Made by a program: the position numbers and the translations under genes. From Brachionus koreanus (lineage: Eukaryota > Rotifera > Eurotatoria > Ploima > Brachionidae), in NCBI GenBank assembly GCA_016987375.1, contig PJRA01000005.1, forward strand, positions 2,985,124 through 2,997,186: 12,063 nt of DNA, in the 5' to 3' direction. This document shows, in pieces, positions 1 through 11,500 of this stretch (position 1 is its first letter; the number at the start of each line of letters is the position of its first letter). The notes beneath the pieces are model-generated. The model was not told the origin of the DNA and did not search any database. It saw nothing but the letters and a program-made list of their open reading frames with translations.

Positions 1-2
1 AA

Positions 3-253
3 AATATAAATTCGTTGGAAACATGTGTAAATATGTGTCTGACAATCAATCAGTATTCATACTGTGCTTATAGTCAAAAGCTTTTAGAATGTGTTTGTCT
101 AAAAAATTTAACTTTTGAGTTCCGCTCTCAAATAACTTTGTCATGTACTAACATTGGAGATTTTTTTTCAGTTTATCACACAGGTCTTATTGGTAATGTT
201 GAATTAAAAAAATTACTAAACTTGAATTTATTTAAACATTTAAGAGACCAAAA
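3..253 (+). other. WSC-domain exon of the xylosyltransferase (partial)
   Basis: This is the first visible exon, open from the window edge. It encodes a cysteine-spaced segment (CVNMC, then ECVC, then SCTN) followed by SVYHTG, which is how WSC carbohydrate-binding domains end. A WSC domain before the GT14 domain is known in invertebrate xylosyltransferases such as C. elegans SQV-6. The exon ends in phase 2 at a GTGATA donor and joins the exon at 309, giving HLRDQKKLKEEKN. An alternative acceptor at 277-279 keeps the frame open but is in the wrong phase for this donor. Confidence 0.7.
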
Positions 254-2409
254 GTGATAATTTTTTTTATAATAAACAGCCAATTCAAAACATTATCTCT
301 GAATTTAGGAAATTAAAAGAGGAAAAAAATCTTCCACGAATTGTTTTCATGCTAACATTAAATGGACGCTCATTAAGACAAGTGTTCAGACTAATCAAAA
401 CAATATATGATGATATTCACTTTTATTATTTTCATATTGATAAAGTAGAAATTAGTTCAATTATTTAGCTTTAATAATATGTTTTTGTTTTTTAGCGTAT
501 GACATATTTAAGAACAAAAATTGAGAAATGTTTGAATGAAAAAAGGAAAAAAAATTTTTATATTTCAAAATGGTCTTTTCCTACAATTTGGGGAGGTTCA
601 AATCTTCTTCAAATGCACTTAAAGGCTATGGAAGAGCTAATCGAGATGAAGGATAAAAATTTATGGCCTTGGGATTTTGTTTTAAATTTAAGCGAGTCGG
701 ACTTTCCGGTCAAAAGTGTCCAGGAATTGACATTGTTTTTAAATCAAAATAGGAACACAAATTTTTTGAAATTTTTTAAAACTCACTATGAAAAGTACTA
801 AAAAATTTTTATTAAATTAAAATTTAAAGGCTTTTAGTTATTCTTTTTTTAATTTAATTAGATTTTCAATGAATCAAGCTTATGAGACTGCATTTTTACA
901 ATGTGAAAATCGAATGTGGCGATTGGGAGACAAAACAATCCCAATCGGAATTCAATTTTCTGGCGGATCGGACTGGTTTTGTCTTAATTCAAAATTTGTA
1001 GACTATATAATTAAGTCAAAAGAGAATTTCGTAGATAATTTGAAACATTTTTTTGAATATTCACTTCTTCCTTCTGAGGTATGAATTTTATTATTTAATT
1101 ACTAATTAATTAGAAAAATATTTCAAGTCATTTTTTCATACTGTATTAATTAATTCTCCATTTTGTGAACAAAATTATGTCAACTTTAATCTTCGATTTG
1201 TAAATTGGCAACGAAAACTCGGTTGTAATTGTCAGCATAAAAAAGTTGTTGACTGGTGTGGTTGTTCACCAAATTTTTTATCATTTAAAAGCTCCATTCA
1301 AGCTATTAAAGTAAGAAAAGGATTAAAATTTTGAAAAGAAATTTTTAAAATTTGTGCGATAGGATTTGAATAGCGTTCCAATTTTTTTTGCGAGAAAATT
1401 TGATCCTTTACGCAACAACTTGATGATTAATTATGTTGATCAATCCATTTATGGTTTTTATTCAGCTGACTTCAAATCTCTGACATCATTTTGGCAAAAT
1501 GTTTTTGATTCGAGTGAACAAAATGAAAATAAATTTCAAATTTTATTTGAATTGATGTCGAAAATTTCCTGGAACAAGCTTGAAAATTTGATTAATGTTG
1601 CCAAACTAGATACCAATTTTGTTGGAAAAGAATACTTTTTGAGAAGTGTTGAAGCATTTTTTGAAGCAGATTCATTTAAAGGATATGTGTTGAATTTTAA
1701 AACAAATAAAAATTTTGAATTTGAAGCATTTTTTAGATTAAATAGTTTCAAAAATTTAATTAAAATATTCAATTTAAACGAGAGCAAAAATCAGACTTTG
1801 ATTTTAATGCGAGAAAATTTTCTTCAATCATTAATAAAAATTCAAATTTCAACTGATTTTGAACAAAAAGAGAGGCAATTCTCAAACTATGCAAATGTCA
1901 TGGATGTAAACAGTAATCCAATTTTGTCAATTGAATTAGATCCGATTAAAGTAGCTTTGGAATTTAGCGTCAAATGGATTGACCCATTAGGTAGTTTGAT
2001 TAAAGAAAAATACATAAAAATGAATTCAAGTGAAAAAAATCAATTGTTAGTTCATAGTTTAGAGCAATCTGAAAATTTAACAATTAAAAAATCACCAGGT
2101 GAATGGAGGCTAAATATATACATGCATGATGTTGCCCATGAATTTTTGGTACTTTCAAAAAAATTTTTAATTTTACCAAAAATGATAGAGGTTTTCTCAA
2201 TTTGGTCATCTATAATTGAAAATTTTTGGCAATTCGACTCACTTTGTGCTAATCAAATCGAATTGGGGTTATATTTGAATCATTCATTTTTAGTAAAACA
2301 CATTTTTAATGATTGTAAAGAATGTTCACATTGGAGTTCGTACTATCCAGATCCTAAATCAGATTTAAACTCAAATTTAGATATTAATTTTTCATATAGA
2401 ATTGTTTGA
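3..2409 (+). CDS. XYLT: Peptide O-xylosyltransferase, 3' part (six exons)
   Basis: This Golgi type II membrane enzyme moves xylose from UDP-xylose to serines of proteoglycan core proteins, the first step of heparan and chondroitin sulfate chain synthesis. The exons I read are 3-253, 309-444, 496-794, 862-1078, 1128-1310 and 1363-2409, giving 710 residues in one frame; all five introns are GT-AG and 49-67 bp. The first exon is the end of a WSC domain. GT14 signatures follow: [69 protein letters not shown] across an intron, [19 protein letters not shown] and FFARKF. The Glu of LLPSE matches the family catalytic base. The C-terminal xylosyltransferase domain runs to YPDPKSDL and stops at 2407-2409. 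Human enzymes are 865-959 residues, so the cytoplasmic tail, membrane anchor and start of the WSC domain lie before position 1. Identity is secure; each border could be off by a few bases. Confidence 0.93.
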
Positions 2410-2444
2410 ATATTTTTTAAATTAAAATTAAATTCATTTTTTTA

Positions 2445-2450
2445 AATAAA
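2445..2450 (+). terminator. Possible poly(A) signal of the xylosyltransferase gene
   Basis: AATAAA lies 36 bp after the stop codon at 2407-2409. In sequence this AT-rich the hexamer also arises by chance, so position is the main support. Confidence 0.4.
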
Positions 2451-2694
2451 ATTTAAATTAACTTAATTTTCGTTTTAAATGAAATCGAAAAGTTGGTCAA
2501 AATAGGCTTATGAAAAAATAATTAATTCCAATATTACAATTTTTTCAATATTTTTAATGCTAACCAATTTTAGAAATTAATTGCAACACTAAATATAAAA
2601 TTTAATGATTATTTCTTTAAGTAAATACGATTTATTATATTTCTGTAAATGAAAGGTCTTAAAATAAAATTGGAAAAAAAATTAAATTTTAAAA

Positions 2695-2700
2695 TTTATT
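2695..2700 (-). terminator. Possible poly(A) signal of ATP23
   Basis: TTTATT on the plus strand is AATAAA on the minus strand. It lies about 40 bp beyond the ATP23 stop codon at 2741-2743. Base composition makes chance occurrence likely, so the call rests on position. Confidence 0.4.
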
Positions 2701-2740
2701 TTTGATTAAATAATTAAAAACTGGTAAAATTATAATATAT

Positions 2741-4138
2741 CTATTCAAAGCCGAAACGTTTTCTGTCTCTATAAGCACGTATGGAATCATTTTCTGTGGG
2801 AATTCGTCTGCCAAAAGGCTCCATATCATTGTAGCATTTATCAAATACTTGGTCAACTATTCTAAAAGCTTCAATTTCTGATATGTTTCTAACCATTTGC
2901 AAAGAGAGAGCGGCTTTTCTTCTAACACATTCTTTTTGAGCATCTTTAAAATGAAACAATGCTGAATCGTTGCTAATTGCGTCCATTATTGAACATGATG
3001 TCAAATTAGCTGCTCTTATCTTTTCATAAAAAAATATTTAAGTTATTAAAAAAAAAATTCAAAAGATTACCTCGGTACATGCTACATGATAATTGTTCTC
3101 AACATCAATAAAGGCACGACAATAATCAAAAGCATGTACCAATTCGTGTGACAATATCTCTGCACAATCTGTATATTTATTAACTCGATTGTGACACAAT
3201 ATTATCTTTTTTAAAAATAAAAAAAATTAGAACCTGTGTACAAGCCAAATGTCTCAAGTCAAACATGTTATATTCAGCACGACAATAGTCATATGACTGA
3301 AGTAAAGACTGTATTAGTTCAGATGCAACTTGGTCTTTACTGTGATTTTCTAATGTGTTATAACATAATATTGACTTAAATGTTTTTTTGCATTAATCAT
3401 TTTGAACTTGAAGAAAACAATTTTACTTGATTGGTTGAAGGATCAAAACCTCCTTTTACTGCTTTGTCACAATATTCACATGAAAAGTGTCTTAAGATGT
3501 TGGCTTCACTAAAAATTTAAAATTATTTAGATTCCGTATTTTCACCGTTTTAAAAATTTTATTTAAATAAAATTATTGGAAACTCAAAAACTAAAACAGA
3601 AGAAAAAATTAGATTTTTATTTTTTTATGCTGCATTATCGGCCTTAAATTAATGAAATAAAATATTTTCTAATTTAAAATAAACCTTCATCATGAATTTA
3701 ACTATTTAAAATAATTTTTTAAAATAAAATATTTTTATAAAAAATTTAAAAAAATCTTTAATTGAAAGAATAAAAAACGATAAGTAAAATTTTAAAAATT
3801 ACCATCCGATGCTTTTCATTGCACTAAGAAGTAACTTTACTCCAGGATCTAGACATGATTTCAAAATCAAACTTATGAACTATTTGTAAAAAATTTTAAA
3901 TATTACGATTTTCAATGCATTTTTCTACATTTTGTTCACATAAATTTTTGTTTAAAATTTCTCGTGAATTACCATAAAACAAGAATTTTTCATACCATTT
4001 AGGCTTAATGACATTTCCGAACCTTTGTGGAAAAAAAAAATACCCATAATCTTCAAATTTATTTGGTTTAAAATCCTTTGCCGAGTTTAAATACAAGTTA
4101 TTCGTATCACTATTTGACTTTTGATCTTTTCCATTCAT
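2741..4138 (-). CDS. ATP23: Mitochondrial inner-membrane metalloprotease ATP23 (XRCC6BP1/KUB3), complete
   Basis: ATP23 is an M76 zinc protease of the mitochondrial intermembrane space. In yeast it matures Atp6 and also helps assemble the ATP synthase Fo part as a chaperone. Minus-strand exons: 3907-4138 (start ATG at 4138), 3803-3848, 3427-3508, then 3234-3374 or 3071-3205, then 2741-3019 (TAG). Family landmarks in order: YGYFFFPQRF, CEQNVEKCIEN, HPGVKLLLSAMKSIGC, HFSCEYC, GGFDPSTNQ, ILCHN, HELVHAFDYCRAF, VACTE, IRAANL, ECVRRKAALS, VFDKCYNDMEPFGRRIP. With one catalytic exon the protein is 257 or 259 residues, close to human ATP23 (about 246). The oddity is the duplicated catalytic exon, listed separately. 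The 232-bp first exon opens with about 25 polar, poorly conserved residues. The gene sits just downstream of PRKDC on the same strand and converges on the xylosyltransferase gene. Confidence 0.93.
3071..3205 (-). other. ATP23: ATP23 catalytic exon, active copy (HELVH)
   Basis: This 135-bp, phase 0-0 exon encodes 45 residues from IILCHN to VACTE. It contains HELVHAFDYCRAF, the HEXXH zinc and catalytic motif of family M76. Upstream splicing to 3427 gives FDPSTNQIILCHN, as in other ATP23 proteins. Downstream splicing over a 51-bp intron gives VACTEIRAANL. Its donor is GTAATC and its acceptor follows a pyrimidine- and A-rich tract. Confidence 0.9.
3234..3374 (-). other. ATP23: ATP23 duplicated catalytic exon, protease-dead copy (QSLLQ)
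   Basis: This 141-bp, phase 0-0 exon encodes 47 residues, from SILCYN to RHLACTQ, with no stop. It aligns with the active exon: ILCYN to ILCHN, SYDYCRA to AFDYCRA, RHLACTQ to YHVACTE. In the ungapped alignment up to DYCRA, HELVH becomes QSLLQ, losing both zinc-binding histidines and the catalytic glutamate. The RHLAC segment is closer to human ATP23 than the active copy is, which argues against simple decay. Its acceptor is ATTTAAG and its donor, GTTCTA, is weaker than the others in the window. It could be an alternative exon or a relic exon no longer spliced; the open frame and conserved flanks favour the first. Confidence 0.75.
3509..3802 (-). other. ATP23 intron 2, AT-rich
   Basis: This 294-bp intron separates MKSIG (ending in TG) from the exon that supplies T and then EANILRHFSC. 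It is the only ATP23 intron well above 60 bp unless an alternative exon is skipped. I see only AT-rich low-complexity sequence, with no exon or element. Confidence 0.6.
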
Positions 4139-4141
4139 TCT
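4139..4141 (-). promoter_or_regulatory. Possible trans-splice acceptor before the ATP23 start
   Basis: Read on the minus strand, a T-rich tract ends in ATATAG, then one A, then the ATG at 4138. The AG at 4141-4140 would be a natural spliced-leader acceptor leaving a one-base 5' UTR. Rotifers and several other invertebrate groups use spliced leaders, but which group this is remains unproven. An AG before an ATG is also common by chance. Confidence 0.35.
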
Positions 4142-4239
4142 ATATTTAAATTAATTGGGAAATAAAAAATATTAATGAATTAAAAGGCCACTACTCCTCA
4201 AAGCCATATGAAAAAAAAATTGAAAATTTAAATAAAAAA

Positions 4240-4245
4240 TTTATT
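4240..4245 (-). terminator. Possible poly(A) signal of PRKDC
   Basis: TTTATT on the plus strand reads AATAAA on the minus strand, about 53 bp past the PRKDC stop at 4298-4300 and about 100 bp before the ATP23 start codon. Chance occurrence is likely in this composition. Confidence 0.4.
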
Positions 4246-4297
4246 CGATTTAAAAAAATTAAATTTCTATTTGTAATTTTTACAAAAAAAAGAGTAT

Positions 4298-5521
4298 TTA
4301 GCAAAACGGTTGCCAACCGATCCAAGTCCGGCCCAAAATATTGGCATCAGTTGACTGATCAATTATGCATTTTATTTGTTCCTCTACACTAAGACGATAT
4401 TTTTCACCTTTTGATAACAACAATTTGCTTCTTTCCAAAATTGGAGTTCCAGTTTTATCCAAAATTTTACTACCCAAAAGAACATCCACAAAATACGGCA
4501 AATACTTGGAGTCTTTATGTATGCCACTGCACAAATCATTCCTCATAATGACACTTGGATGAATTCCGAAAAGTTTTTGTTTAACACTATTAACTCTATC
4601 CTTAGCATACTGAAGTCCTAAAGTTATTTCCATGTCTTCGTTAAGATTTTTTTTAGCTATTTTAACAGCATTGCCTATCCAGTCAATAGATGGCTCTTTT
4701 ATAAACACATCCAATATGCACAGCAAAAGATCATTGTTTTCTCTCAACGCTTCTAAACAATGAACCATGCTTGATTGAAATAGGCCACGTTGTTCCAATG
4801 GTGCAATTAGTTTTAGAATTTGCCTGGTCAACCTAATAGGAACAAGCTCTGGAACAGGTATGTTCATTGAAGCATGACCAAATGCGATGCCAAAATCAAT
4901 GCCAATTGCTCGGCCATTTTTCAAATCAATCATCCAATTGCTTAAATGTCGATCTCCAATGCCAAGAATGTAATGGCAAGTGCTAGCTACTGCATAGCTT
5001 TTGATAAACTCATTGCGAAGAACAAAATAAGCTTCAGAATCGGATGATAAAGAGCGCAAGAATTGTCTAAATAAGTCCCATGGAATTGAATTTTGAATTT
5101 TGTTGAATTCTTGACAAATTACGTCACGATTATATTTGGCAAATACCATGCCATATATTTCACCATAAGTCTTTTTCGAACCATCGTGATTAATTCCATA
5201 AATAAAGTCAGCATATTTATTTTGTGCATCTTTTACTGCATCATTTTCCAAAATCATTTTTAAAGGCTTTGTTTCTGGTATCCATTCAATTAAGGCTAAT
5301 TTACTTGTCATTGGAATTACTTGATACGTTTTGATAGATAAATTTCGCTTGTAGCATTTTGAGTCTGATTTAAGCAGGTTATTAATGATATCTAGTAAAA
5401 TTTCGACTCGTTGGTCTTGACGCTGATCTTCTCCGCATTTGACCAAAAATTTATACTCTCTTTGGTCATCACCTCGAATTGTTATGCATTTAGGGCGACG
5501 CAAAGAGCTCATTTCTAAAAT
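4298..5521 (-). other. PRKDC: PRKDC final exon: PI3K-like kinase domain and FATC
   Basis: One 1224-bp exon encodes 407 residues with almost the whole kinase domain. Counting from the Met of MSSLRRPK: the ATP-binding lysine is K25 in KFLVKCGED; the catalytic loop is GIGDRHLSN (D187, H189, N192); the metal-binding DFG is residues 206-208 in GIDFGIAFG; and the activation loop leads to [13 protein letters not shown]. The last ~33 residues form the FATC domain. All residues needed for catalysis are present, so the kinase looks functional. The exon begins ILEMSSL at an acceptor ending in CTAG; a second AG eight bases later would break the phase. Confidence 0.92.
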
Positions 5522-8500
5522 CTAGTAACAATTGAATTAATTTAATCATTTTTCTAAGACTAAAATATACTCTTTCATCAAAGCTTTCTATTTTGATATG
5601 ATATTCAGGTAGTGGTTTTCCATGTCCATTATATTGACCTTAAAATTTAAATTAATTTAGATAGAAAAAATAGATATAAATTAATTTTATTAGTAAAATT
5701 ATTATAAAATTTGGAAAAAATAAACAACAAATATTTAAATAAAAAAAAAAATATTTGTAAAATGTTTATTTAACACAGTATTTTATAAAAATTTTTGGGC
5801 TTGTTATATCCTTTAAAAAGGATGGACATTTTTTAATTAAAATTTTTATTGAAAAACTTAAAATTAAGATTTTTTTTTACAAAATCAGTTATTACGCAGT
5901 ATATAGAAAGTTTTTTTTATTATTTTTATTTTTAATCTCAAGCGAGATACACTTCCTTTTTTTTGAACAAGTTTATCTGTCACTTTTTTAAATCAAAAAA
6001 ATACAATCAAGTATTTTCAGTTTTATACTCTTTTAATCTTTTTTCTTAATAAAAAAGTTTTAAAGACTTTTTTTTCTTAAGAAAATGATTAGGCGGATAT
6101 TTCAAAATAAGCTCGTTAAATTCAATTTTAAAAAAGTTTTTTTTTTAAATTTGTTTCTTTACGTGAGAAAAATTATCTTACGTAAAAGTTATTTAAAATT
6201 CATTTTTTTCCTTTATTTTTAATCAATCAAGACAGAAAAGATAGTTTACGTAAATAAAAAAATTTTCAACGTAAACCTAAACTGAAAATTGAAAGTTAAA
6301 TTAAATTATTTTTTAAGTTCATAAAAGGGTTCTAAAAAATTATAATTTTTACCTGGTATTTCGATGTCCTTAGTAATGTTTCTTTTAAAACTCTTGAGCC
6401 ACATTGAAAAGTCGCCCAAGTTGCCATTCATAGGATTTCTTTGACAATACTCGGTTACTTGAATTGAAATATTTTGCAATTTATTTTTAATCTCTAATTC
6501 ACTTAATTGTGGCAACAACTTAAAATGTTCACCAAATTGTTTTGAAAATAAGGGCTTTATAAAATTAGAAAATTCAATCCATAGTCTACCACAAAAGTCC
6601 ATTTTGGTTTCTAAATCGATCAGAGCATTATTTAAATCCTTGAATAATTTAATAACAATGTCATTTTTTTTCAAGTTGCCATTAATTTCTGTAATTAAAT
6701 CATTAAAAAGAAGCTTTGGTGTGTTCAAATGCTCCAAAGCAACAATTAATTGTTCAACTAAAGGCAACTGAGTTCTCAAATGATGGTTTATTTTTTGTAC
6801 AAATTCATTTTGTTCATTTGATTCAAAGTTGAATTTAAAATTTTCAGTACTCATTTTAAAGGAATAAACCAAGGCCTGTGGATACTCTATGGATATTTTT
6901 TCAATAATTCTCTGTATCGCTCTAGCCTCAGGTTTATCTAACAACGCAGTCATTTGACTTAACCAATTCAAAAACATCCAGCTAGGAATATCTTCGCTAC
7001 ATGATATAAATTTCTCCAAACATTGCTCTGGATACATTTCAATTATTTGAAGAAGGCGAGGAAACCTAGTCCTTGCTTCAACGGAATTTAACCGGATTGA
7101 TTTCAAGAGATGTTCGGTTACAATTACTGGAAATTCAGATTTTATCATTTGACAAATTTCTTTCAAGTTATCAAAACTATTTTTATCTATAAATATAAAA
7201 TAAATAAAAAATTCCTTAATTCTATCAATTAACTTACCATTTTCAGCTATTCTCAAGAAATAATCACAGTACGTTGCTAGTTCTAAACTACCTTTATTGG
7301 TATCGTCAATTTTCAATAAATTGTCCACTCCATTTTTCATTAATTTCGATATTGTCTAAAAATATATTATTATAATATTATTATTCTTAATAAAATTATT
7401 ATTTTTTAAATTAAAAAAATATTCAGAATGGTAATAATTAAAAATTTAAATTCTAGCAATATTCTAGATTTAAATTAGATAAATTGCTGCAAATATCGTT
7501 ATTGAAAATACAGATTGACAATTTAAAATCAAGATTTTTGTTTTCAAATAAAGTTAAATTAAAAAATCAAGATATTTTTTTCAAAAATATTAAAAAGAAC
7601 TTGAATTATCACTCAACGTTGCTACTTAATAGACTTGAATTTAAATGATTGGTATTTTAAATATTTTGATCACTAAGATTTACCGGTATAATAACATATA
7701 TACGTTATTATGATCAGAATTTTATTAAAAATGAATTTATAATGTTGAAAATAGAATTAATAAATCATTGAGACATTACCAGCAAAGAAAAATCAATACT
7801 TTTCAATTTTCAAATACAAAAAAAAATTCTAATGGCATCAAATATTCCAAAATATGTTTTGAATATTGAAGTTGAGATGGAGGATGAAGCAGATTGTCCA
7901 ACTTAATCAACAAGAGCAAAACGAACCCGTAAGTTCATAATGGAATAAAAGTACTCAAACCAAGAAGCAGCATTGACAAAAATAAAAGGAGAAAAAACGT
8001 AGAGCTACCATTTTGAAAATATACTCAAGATGGAAACAAGATTTATTATAGATGTAATAAAGCTAAATTAAGAGGTGTTAAAATTTGAATTTTACTTAAC
8101 AAAAAATATTGAATACCTATCAAAATATTTATTATACTAATCAATTAATAATTGTGAGAAAACTATTAAAATTTAAAAATTTTCAAAAATCCTTGATTTA
8201 TATTTAAATATGAAAAAAAAAATTTAATTTAATTATATTTTATAAAAAAATTGAAATATGATTCAAATATCAGAGTTAATGCATAAAAAAATCTTGAAGT
8301 ATTCAGAAAATGGTCTATAGCGTATATAAGAATTTAAGGAAATAAGGCACATGCAATATTGGGCTAACAAAGACGTACACTTAGATTCTTTAGGATTTAC
8401 AGAGAAGAACAATAAAGAAGTTAAAGATTCCAGAAAGCACTATTTAAATATAAAAGTAGCAAATGAGTGGAATTAGCTTCCTATTTAGTGATTTATTTTG

Positions 8501-11500
8501 GCTGAGTGAATTTAGGACGATAAAATTAAGAAAAAGACATTTAATAGACATACATAGTAGCCTAATGTTAATTACATATACCGATTAGAGCTACCATTGT
8601 AGCCAGAGTTGTTCAAAAGTCATAAATTTTAAGTGAAAAGACTTGACTTTTTTTGACTTTGAAACAACTTTAAAATATTTTTTTTTGTTGACTTTGGCAC
8701 AAATCTGGCAGTATCTAATAATTATTTTTATCATTATCATAATGATTGTATAAAAAAACTCTTAAAAATTTATTAATTTCATTGAATATTTAGTTTAAAT
8801 AAAGAAAAATCAATCTTACCAATTGAAAATCATCGATGCTTTCATTTCTAGTATAATCAATCAATTGATTTCTATATTTATCTTCTTGAATAATTTTGTT
8901 AAACTCAGAATCAAAGTCAGAATGGAGATCAATTAACGATTGCATTATAAATTTTGAAAATTTTGAATGCAAAACACGCTGTTCTTGATATAGATAGTTT
9001 TTTTGATTATTTTTGAATTTTTCCGAAAGAGAATCATATTTTAAAATTTCTCTGAGAACCATTGATTCAAGAAACATTTGAAAACTGTCAACATTGTTAG
9101 TTTGTTTGCATCTGTATAAATGTGTGTTCAAGTAACAATGAACCCAAATTAGTTGTAAATCTGATAGATCTAAATTTTTTACTTTCAAAATTGATCGAGT
9201 TTGTTGAAGTTTATTCAGAGCTAGCTTGGAATTTCCTTGACATTGAGCAGCTTGGGCAAATTTTATTTTCATTAAAAAGTTTGTTTTTGTAATTTTTCTT
9301 TTTAATTTTTTTGAAAAATTCAATAAATCTTCGTCAAAGTTATTCACTGTACTATCGCCAATATAAGTTGTCGAAGTATCTGAATCTCTTAGACAAACTG
9401 AATTAAGGTACTTTTCTTCCATTATTTCAAAATAAACAAGACGGTTTGTTACAACATCATCCCAAGTACATGGTGGGTCTGTTAGCATATTTGGCATTGA
9501 ATCACACCAAACATCTATCAAATTATCTATTTTTTTTGCCAAGTTCATTGTAAACACTTGATTTGTGCTGACAAATTTTAAAAATTCATTCAGTTCAACT
9601 ATTGATTGTAGAGATTGAAGCTTGTTTATTTGATTTTGTTTAATTGTTCTATTTGTGCTCGACCATTCCTTGAAAAAAATGTTGTTTAGAAAATTTATCT
9701 AAAATTCAATTTAACTTTCCACAAAAAGTATTCCAAATAATGGAGTACTTAAAATGTCATAAATATATCATATATCAGTCATCGAGTTAGCCAAAAAGTA
9801 TTTTATTAAAGTTTACTGAGTATTCAATTTTAAAGATAATAAAGAATTTATTGGTGTTGGATTTAATTTATTAATTCAAATTAATTAAAAAAATAGGAAT
9901 AAGCTTTTAAGAAATATACTTTTAATTTATAAATTTGAATTGCTTAAAAATAAAGAAAACACTTCTTATTTTTTGCAAAGATGCAACAAATTTACCTTAA
10001 AATTTAAGTTTCAAAACTCCCAATGCATTTTATAAATAAATACGATGAAAATACGATGATTTTATAAATGTCAGAAAGAGAACTTAAAAAAATTTCTTTA
10101 AATTAATCAATTTTCAGAATTTTTTTTATTTTTGTTCTAAATAACAATTAAATTTTATTTTTTTTATTTATTTAAAAAATTATTTAGGAAAGTTTCCAGT
10201 TAAATATTACAAAGCATTCCTAGAGCATATTTTAAATTAATTGTAGAATTGAAATTTTACTTCAAAACTATTTATTACCAAAGTTAATATTTTATAATCA
10301 TGAGTAATTGATACTATGGAATTTAAAGCAAATATTAAAAAAATGAAACTTTAGAACTTTGAACATTTATTATTTCAATACAAAAATATTATTTTTATTT
10401 TATTATTTTGTACCTAATTTTATTTCAAATAAAATGTTAAACAAGAACCCAATATTACACTCACAAGCTACTAAATTTCAATGAATTTTTTACAAATTGA
10501 AATATTTTTTCAATATTTTAAAGATAAAGCTTTGAAATGTAGCTAAAATTTAAAAATCTCCTGATATGTTAACTTGGTTTTTTAAAGTTCTGTTTAATTA
10601 GCGGATGTTCAAAAAGTAATGGTCATTTCTTTAAAATTAATGAAAAAAGTTACCTTAATCAGAGAATATGAATTATTTAAGCATGACATATAGACAAGAA
10701 GAATTTAGAATATATATAAATTATTTTGATACAATTTTTTCCTTATTCACTCCATGTGGAGCATTACTTTTACCCACGTAATTGCCATTCCAATGAGCTC
10801 TAGTGATTTTTGACTGTTATTGCGGGTCTTTCTCCCTTATGTCGCCCTTTGGATGTCCATTGATGGGCTTTTTTTGTATTATTTTTTCTTTAATTCTAAA
10901 TACATGTCCAAGCCATTGCAATCTTTGTTCTTAATTAATTGGCTTAATGGCTCTGAATTTGTTATTTTGTATAGCTCAGCATTTGAAAATGTCTCAGACC
11001 AGTGTATGCCCAGAATCCTCCGCAAACTTTCAGTGTGGGGGGTGTTTAGAATTTTCATATCAGATTCATACATCCACCAACATTCAATTCCATACATCAA
11101 TGTTGCTTTTATTACAGAGTTGTACAATTTGAGTTTTTTTCCCTTGCTAAAGCTAGTTGATTTACAAACTTAGGAAGCACCATCAGTACAGCGATGGAAA
11201 CACAGAGAGGCATTAAGAATAGACTTACTAATGCAAAGAGTACCAATTTTTCAATACTTTATGTCATGCTAAAATTTCAAATTTTGTAAAATCTTCAAAA
11301 TAAAAAATTGAATAGAAATTAATACTAAATGGCTTATAACTTTTTTTTCTAAAAGTTTTCCAACCTCTGTTAATGTAACATAGTGAAATATTCAAAGTTG
11401 CATTAATAGTTCAAGTCTGCTAATGATGTTTAGAAACTTATTCTGATCTTGAAAAAAGATATTTTTTTTTAGGATTTTTTATGTTTAATTTTTCTAATTT

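Follow-up and report, generated by a model that had tools for sequence, protein, structure and literature searches.

The gene for the mitochondrial protease ATP23 in Brachionus koreanus contains two neighboring exons for the same segment of the protein, only one of which carries the catalytic motif of a metalloprotease, and the question raised by this locus is which proteins such a gene produces. The window (the whole 12,063-nt stretch of DNA analysed here) lies within an 83-Mb genome, and its minus-strand gene at 2741–4138 is identified as ATP23 by a match to the Pfam profile of the Peptidase_M76 family. Spliced alignment to the ATP23 protein of Brachionus plicatilis (P0001) gave the following exon model, in which the two exons are called dead and live after their motifs:

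3907–4138, minus strand: ATP23 exon 1, 232 nt, start codon at 4138 (spliced alignment to P0001)
3803–3848, minus strand: ATP23 exon 2, 46 nt, preceded by a 58-nt intron (spliced alignment to P0001)
3427–3508, minus strand: ATP23 exon 3, 82 nt, C-terminal FDPSTNQ, preceded by a 294-nt intron (spliced alignment)
3375–3426, minus strand: intron upstream of the dead exon, 52 nt (spliced alignment)
3234–3374, minus strand: dead alternative exon, 141 nt, 47 codons, phase 0 at both ends, QSLLQ replacing HExxH
3206–3233, minus strand: gap between the two exons, 28 nt, GT...AG
3071–3205, minus strand: live alternative exon, 135 nt, 45 codons, phase 0 at both ends, HELVH
3020–3070, minus strand: intron downstream of the live exon, 51 nt (spliced alignment)
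2741–3019, minus strand: last ATP23 exon, 276 nt plus stop, starting IRAANL

The six exons are thus separated by spacers of 58, 294, 52, 28 and 51 nt, and those of 141 and 135 nt are homologous (SILCYNTLENHSKDQVASELIQSLLQSYDYCRAEYNMFDLRHLACTQ and IILCHNRVNKYTDCAEILSHELVHAFDYCRAFIDVENNYHVACTE). The initial annotation had described two minus-strand exons for one ATP23 segment, with QSLLQ in one and HELVH in the other and a 28-nt gap between them; translation bore this out to the base, and spliced alignment reproduced its reading that both exons are in frame with the FDPSTNQ and IRAANL flanks, with products of 259 aa for the dead exon and 257 aa for the live one. Inclusion of both would give 304 aa. 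The pair is not a chance match, because each exon alone scores above the 25.2 bits required for Peptidase_M76, the live one at 49.6 and the dead one at 28.4, and both isoforms match the entire domain (PF09768; 162.4 and 136.3 bits, scored with an incorrect exon 1/2 joint that does not touch the domain core). The live exon retains the HExxH zinc-binding and catalytic motif together with the conserved cysteine and aspartate positions of the M76 family; the dead exon lacks the motif and, judged by its sequence, would specify an M76 homologue with no active peptidase. Adjacent, homologous, of similar length and of the same phase, the two exons have the layout expected of mutually exclusive exons.

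The neighborhood of the gene was also surveyed. ATP23 lies tail to tail with a plus-strand xylosyltransferase gene at 3–2409, whose frame at 1363–2409 matches Xylo_C. On the same strand as ATP23, an open frame with PI3/PI4-kinase and FATC matches (4298–5521) terminates 160 nt upstream of the ATP23 start, with further same-strand exons of the kinase gene reaching to about 12062 and a weak ATR HEAT match upstream. From its motifs we take this kinase to be DNA-PKcs-like, and its position beside ATP23/KUB3 may reflect either a functional link or chance. A 96-aa minus-strand open frame at 10879–11169 has no Pfam match at 0.01 and presumably resembles a remnant of a retrotransposon reverse transcriptase.

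The exon pair is real and conserved. It recurs in B. plicatilis P0001, in P0082 (an open frame of another contig) and in a second, colinear ATP23 copy on contig C44 of the same assembly, where the gap measures 30 nt. The nearest named relative is B. plicatilis, whose form with the dead exon, cut from P0001, is 86% identical to the dead isoform described here; by exon, identity is 43/47 for the dead exon and 41/45 for the live one (both 91%), and 77/92 for the last exon. As for stops or decay of the dead exon in relatives, its frame is kept in both, and identity to P0082 is 33/47 for the dead exon and 37/45 for the live one. C44 was considered as a separate gene and this was set aside: because it is colinear with window positions 1–7367 (of five aligned pieces, the three long are 94–96% identical and the remaining two, both short, 85.5 and 87.5%), we read it as the other haplotype, and the assembly has probably retained both haplotypes in places. 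About 7% of aligned sites differ between the window region on C8 and C44 (528/7279), and a protein search of this genome, limited in its scoring to the top candidates, listed nine matches, all of them at the window locus or on C44. Since the pair recurs in two haplotypes and two other sequences, an assembly artefact is unlikely; a pseudoexon or chance match is likewise unlikely given the Pfam scores, the conservation and the tree grouping described below. The pair is probably functional.

Differences between the haplotypes are few within the pair, with one synonymous and two nonsynonymous changes in the dead exon and one synonymous and none nonsynonymous in the live exon, in each case too few for dN/dS. 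Synonymous changes numbered 2 over 52.8 sites in the pair vs 16 over 82.6 sites in exons 2, 3 and 6 (Fisher p 0.009 on rounded counts, with exon 1 left out). This signal is only suggestive, because 13 of 351 windows of the same length are as similar between the haplotypes as the exon pair, or more so. The initial annotation had also stated that reading through the gap meets a stop; this is true of the window haplotype but not of C44, whose 30-nt gap stays open in frame. That a 2-nt indel between haplotypes toggles the frame points to an untranslated gap.

Whether the two exons can be joined depends in part on the introns that this genome uses. Kinesin and CCT proteins that this genome encodes without interruption were aligned to 28 loci, four of which yielded no intron, and 81 introns were called. 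Calls of 40–200 nt were accepted if their length was not a multiple of three or if they held an in-frame stop (n = 53; minimum 47 nt, median 56 nt, mean A+T 82%); some of the loci are near-copies of one another, and the 53 introns are not all independent. Dropped were 16 calls longer than 200 nt and 12 of up to 200 nt, the latter comprising 11 stop-free multiples of three (ten of 21–45 nt and one of 117 nt; A+T 48–71%) and one of 19 nt (58% A+T). These short calls look like coding insertions, and the filter could conceal a genuine stop-free short intron of, for example, 30 nt. Among the called introns with a length not divisible by three, none measured 20–46 nt, vs 34 at 47–200 nt. The gap of 28/30 nt is well outside these sizes, and direct joining of both exons is therefore unlikely in this species. 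The claim that the gap is far below the other introns stands, with a minimum of 47 nt in this sample rather than the 49 nt given earlier. The accompanying proposal of a steric block to joint splicing fits the intron sizes here but need not extend to the relatives: the P0001 gene model joins both exons in a 304-aa protein with no linker residues, and the P0082 gap consists of 17 open codons (about 51 nt), so that, as far as size is concerned, joint inclusion could take place there. The argument from intron size applies to the species studied here.

Splice-site strength differs between the two exons. Scored against the 53 reference introns, donor and acceptor of the dead exon both fall at the 8th percentile, whereas for the live exon the percentiles are 79 (acceptor) and 91 (donor). 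Weak sites do not imply disuse, because the constitutive ATP23 acceptor at 3849 scores lower than all sites of the alternative exons. The gap contains CTAAT 3 nt after the dead exon donor, which places its A 6 nt downstream of the gap's first base and 21 nt upstream of the AG. That this serves as the branch point of the live exon is a guess, because only 5 of the 53 reference introns contain CTAAY and because the peak near 20 nt of a looser branch-like motif (present in 47 of 53) is partly built in by choosing the occurrence nearest 20 nt.

Other rotifers place the dead exon in a wider context. The search found 229 proteins, and the segment could be cut by its flanks from 183, with P0001 and P0082 set aside. 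HExxH is missing from the segment in 25 of the 183, namely 23 rotifer-like proteins, one jerboa protein (YELIH) and P0171. Among the rotifer and rotifer-like proteins, organism names are attached only to P0001, P0094 and P0096. The motif is absent from every one of the 23 rotifer-like proteins from outside Brachionus in which the segment is covered: P0094 of Seison nebaliae, P0096 of Rotaria socialis and 19 proteins like it (69–93% identical), and P0002 and P0003, which are closest to Brachionus and have the dead segment only. The partial protein P0141 (RSLLH) is a further dead form. P0171, a Peptidase_M76 protein outside the rotifer-like set, has RQLIT in place of HExxH, perhaps through an independent loss. 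Of the 186 proteins with HExxH that lie outside the rotifer-like set, not one is closer to a rotifer-like protein than to a non-rotifer one. Among the proteins found there was therefore no live rotifer ATP23 beyond those of Brachionus, although a diverged one could have escaped the search. P0168, on a 166-kb contig, reads continuously as a single protein of 214 aa, from its start across the dead segment and into IRALNF; this gives a hint that an alternative exon is absent at this position in bdelloids. The Brachionus dead segment resembles the sole type of ATP23 segment found in other rotifer-like sequences, making the live exon the odd one out. Across the sampled rotifers ATP23 has the look of a pseudoprotease, to which Brachionus retains a live alternative.

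A tree of 40 segments, using 24 of 158 HExxH-bearing and 7 of 20 bdelloid-like segments, bears on the origin of the dead form. With the H, E and H columns removed, the Brachionus dead exons group with the dead-only P0002 and P0003 at 97/96. All 13 dead rows fall on one side of the all-column tree (97/92.7), and removing the three columns lowers the support for this grouping to 66/84. Without these columns, the Brachionus live exon can equally well be placed with the bdelloid-like forms (p-AU 0.538). A single clade of Brachionus dead and live exons gives p-AU 0.0665 with all columns and 0.258 without H, E and H, so a duplication within Brachionus is not rejected. These segments make it plausible that the dead form arose once and early, but given the fall in support to 66/84 and the equally good fit of live with bdelloid-like forms, bdelloids may have lost the motif separately.

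Several lines of evidence bear on whether a form without catalytic residues could work. For the dead-only relative P0002, the predicted fold has a mean pLDDT of 85.9 and a pTM of 0.83, so the fold is predicted to be kept; a Foldseek search with this model gave no match at E ≤ 0.001, and the P0001 sequence had no match in the PDB at 0.001. The dead segment of the window is 29/46 identical to P0002, like its flanks (55/93 and 57/90), and 25/46 identical to P0003, slightly below its flanks (46/72 and 54/90). The initial annotation's appeal to an assembly role of yeast Atp23 that does not need protease activity agrees with an account in PMC8877559, according to which a proteolytically inactive atp23 mutant still assembles the ATPase, with HEXXH serving processing and residues 112–115 (LRDK) serving assembly. 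By analogy, the dead form would make sense as a non-proteolytic ATP23, with an assembly role as a putative function. We take the yeast LRDK to precede HEXXH, in which case its counterpart here would lie in exons common to both isoforms.

The reading that we favor, at a probability of about 0.6, is that one ATP23 gene makes two alternative proteins through a choice between tandem homologous zinc-helix exons. We infer an exclusive choice, with a split between protease and helper: exon 3071–3205 would yield an active metalloprotease, and exon 3234–3374 an M76 protein without HExxH, a putative pseudoprotease keeping the assembly role. Joint inclusion would be hindered by the short gap and by a dead-exon donor lying almost atop the possible branch point of the live exon. 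In this history the dead form would be the usual ATP23 of the sampled rotifers, and Brachionus would have kept the live exon alongside it. Both exons might instead be spliced together, giving a 304-aa ATP23 with dead and live copies in series and the gap acting as a very short intron, or being read through in C44. P0001 is itself such a model, the longer P0082 gap is open, the phases are compatible with a joined product in frame, and the C44 gap can be read; we nonetheless consider this outcome unlikely, given a gap of 28/30 nt against the 47-nt minimum of 53 introns (a filter that would drop a 30-nt stop-free intron) and a gap that is unreadable in frame in the window haplotype. In the AlphaFold model of P0001, moreover, order is poor along the dead stretch, where means over blocks of 10 residues are 48–55 (residues 131–170), and the live part is well packed and scores 96, although the alignment used favors such an outcome.

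It is very improbable that the dead exon is a decaying, skipped duplicate and that the live form alone is produced. Weak splice sites and the loss of catalytic residues are what such decay would leave, but the exon has kept its frame and its identity to B. plicatilis and P0082, groups with the dead-only P0002 and P0003, and is as similar to P0002 as its flanks are. Exon choice could also be real with the dead form serving another role, either damping the live form or acting in DNA repair as literature on KUB3 would suggest, a proposal that we regard as distinctly doubtful. ATP23 does adjoin the putative DNA-PKcs-like kinase gene, but gene order alone says little, and for the rotifer-like proteins with a dead segment only, the search brought up no live partner that they could damp. 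The human orthologue of ATP23 is also described, in PMC3742159 and PMC9181541, as the Ku70-binding protein KUB3. Returning to a choice between protease and assembly helper, we tentatively extend it to rotifers at large, where ATP23 might have become a pseudoprotease early and serve as a non-cutting assembly factor group-wide, with Brachionus having the protease solely via the alternative exon and exon choice acting as a switch between enzyme and helper.

One review calls the role of ATP23 in mammals and plants unknown (PMC8847149). Cutting and ATP synthase assembly by ATP23 have been separated in yeast by mutation; rotifers that apparently lack the cutting yet keep the protein, beside a relative with both forms as exons, would be a natural separation-of-function experiment in which the reason for conservation of the ATP23 fold becomes directly testable. 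In open-licence full text we found no described ATP23 with an alternative exon replacing HExxH, in agreement with the initial annotation, and no ATP23 paper treating rotifers or mutually exclusive exons; the single ATP23 paper that came up for pseudoproteases deals with ATP-dependent proteases. Pseudoproteases have been described before, as have exclusive exons in tandem, but an ATP23 that combines the two looks new, and so does the absence, as far as it appears, of active ATP23 from other rotifers.

Comparison with known systems places the gene as follows. Both rotifer isoforms match the whole domain of the ATP23/Peptidase_M76 family (yeast Atp23; human ATP23, also XRCC6BP1 or KUB3), and the live exon has its HExxH, whereas the alternative exon with QSLLQ sets this gene apart from known ATP23. 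Rotaria socialis P0096 (bdelloid-type) and Seison nebaliae P0094 are likewise M76 proteins without HExxH; they have the dead segment only, with no live alternative seen at the protein level, whereas Brachionus has both. Mutually exclusive tandem exons with steric exclusion, as treated in a human survey that takes a donor-to-branch distance below 50 bp as a criterion for steric interference (PMC5740500), share with this pair the adjacent homologous exons of similar length and phase, and also a donor, here that of the dead exon, very near a possible branch point; the rotifer pair, in contrast, is described from genome sequence, and its alternatives would differ in having or lacking a protease active site. 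The inactive atp23 mutant of yeast (Zeng 2007 and Osman 2007, as cited in PMC8877559 and PMC5594102) is described there as losing proteolysis and keeping assembly, whereas in the rotifer the inactive form would arise naturally, from one of the gene's own exons.
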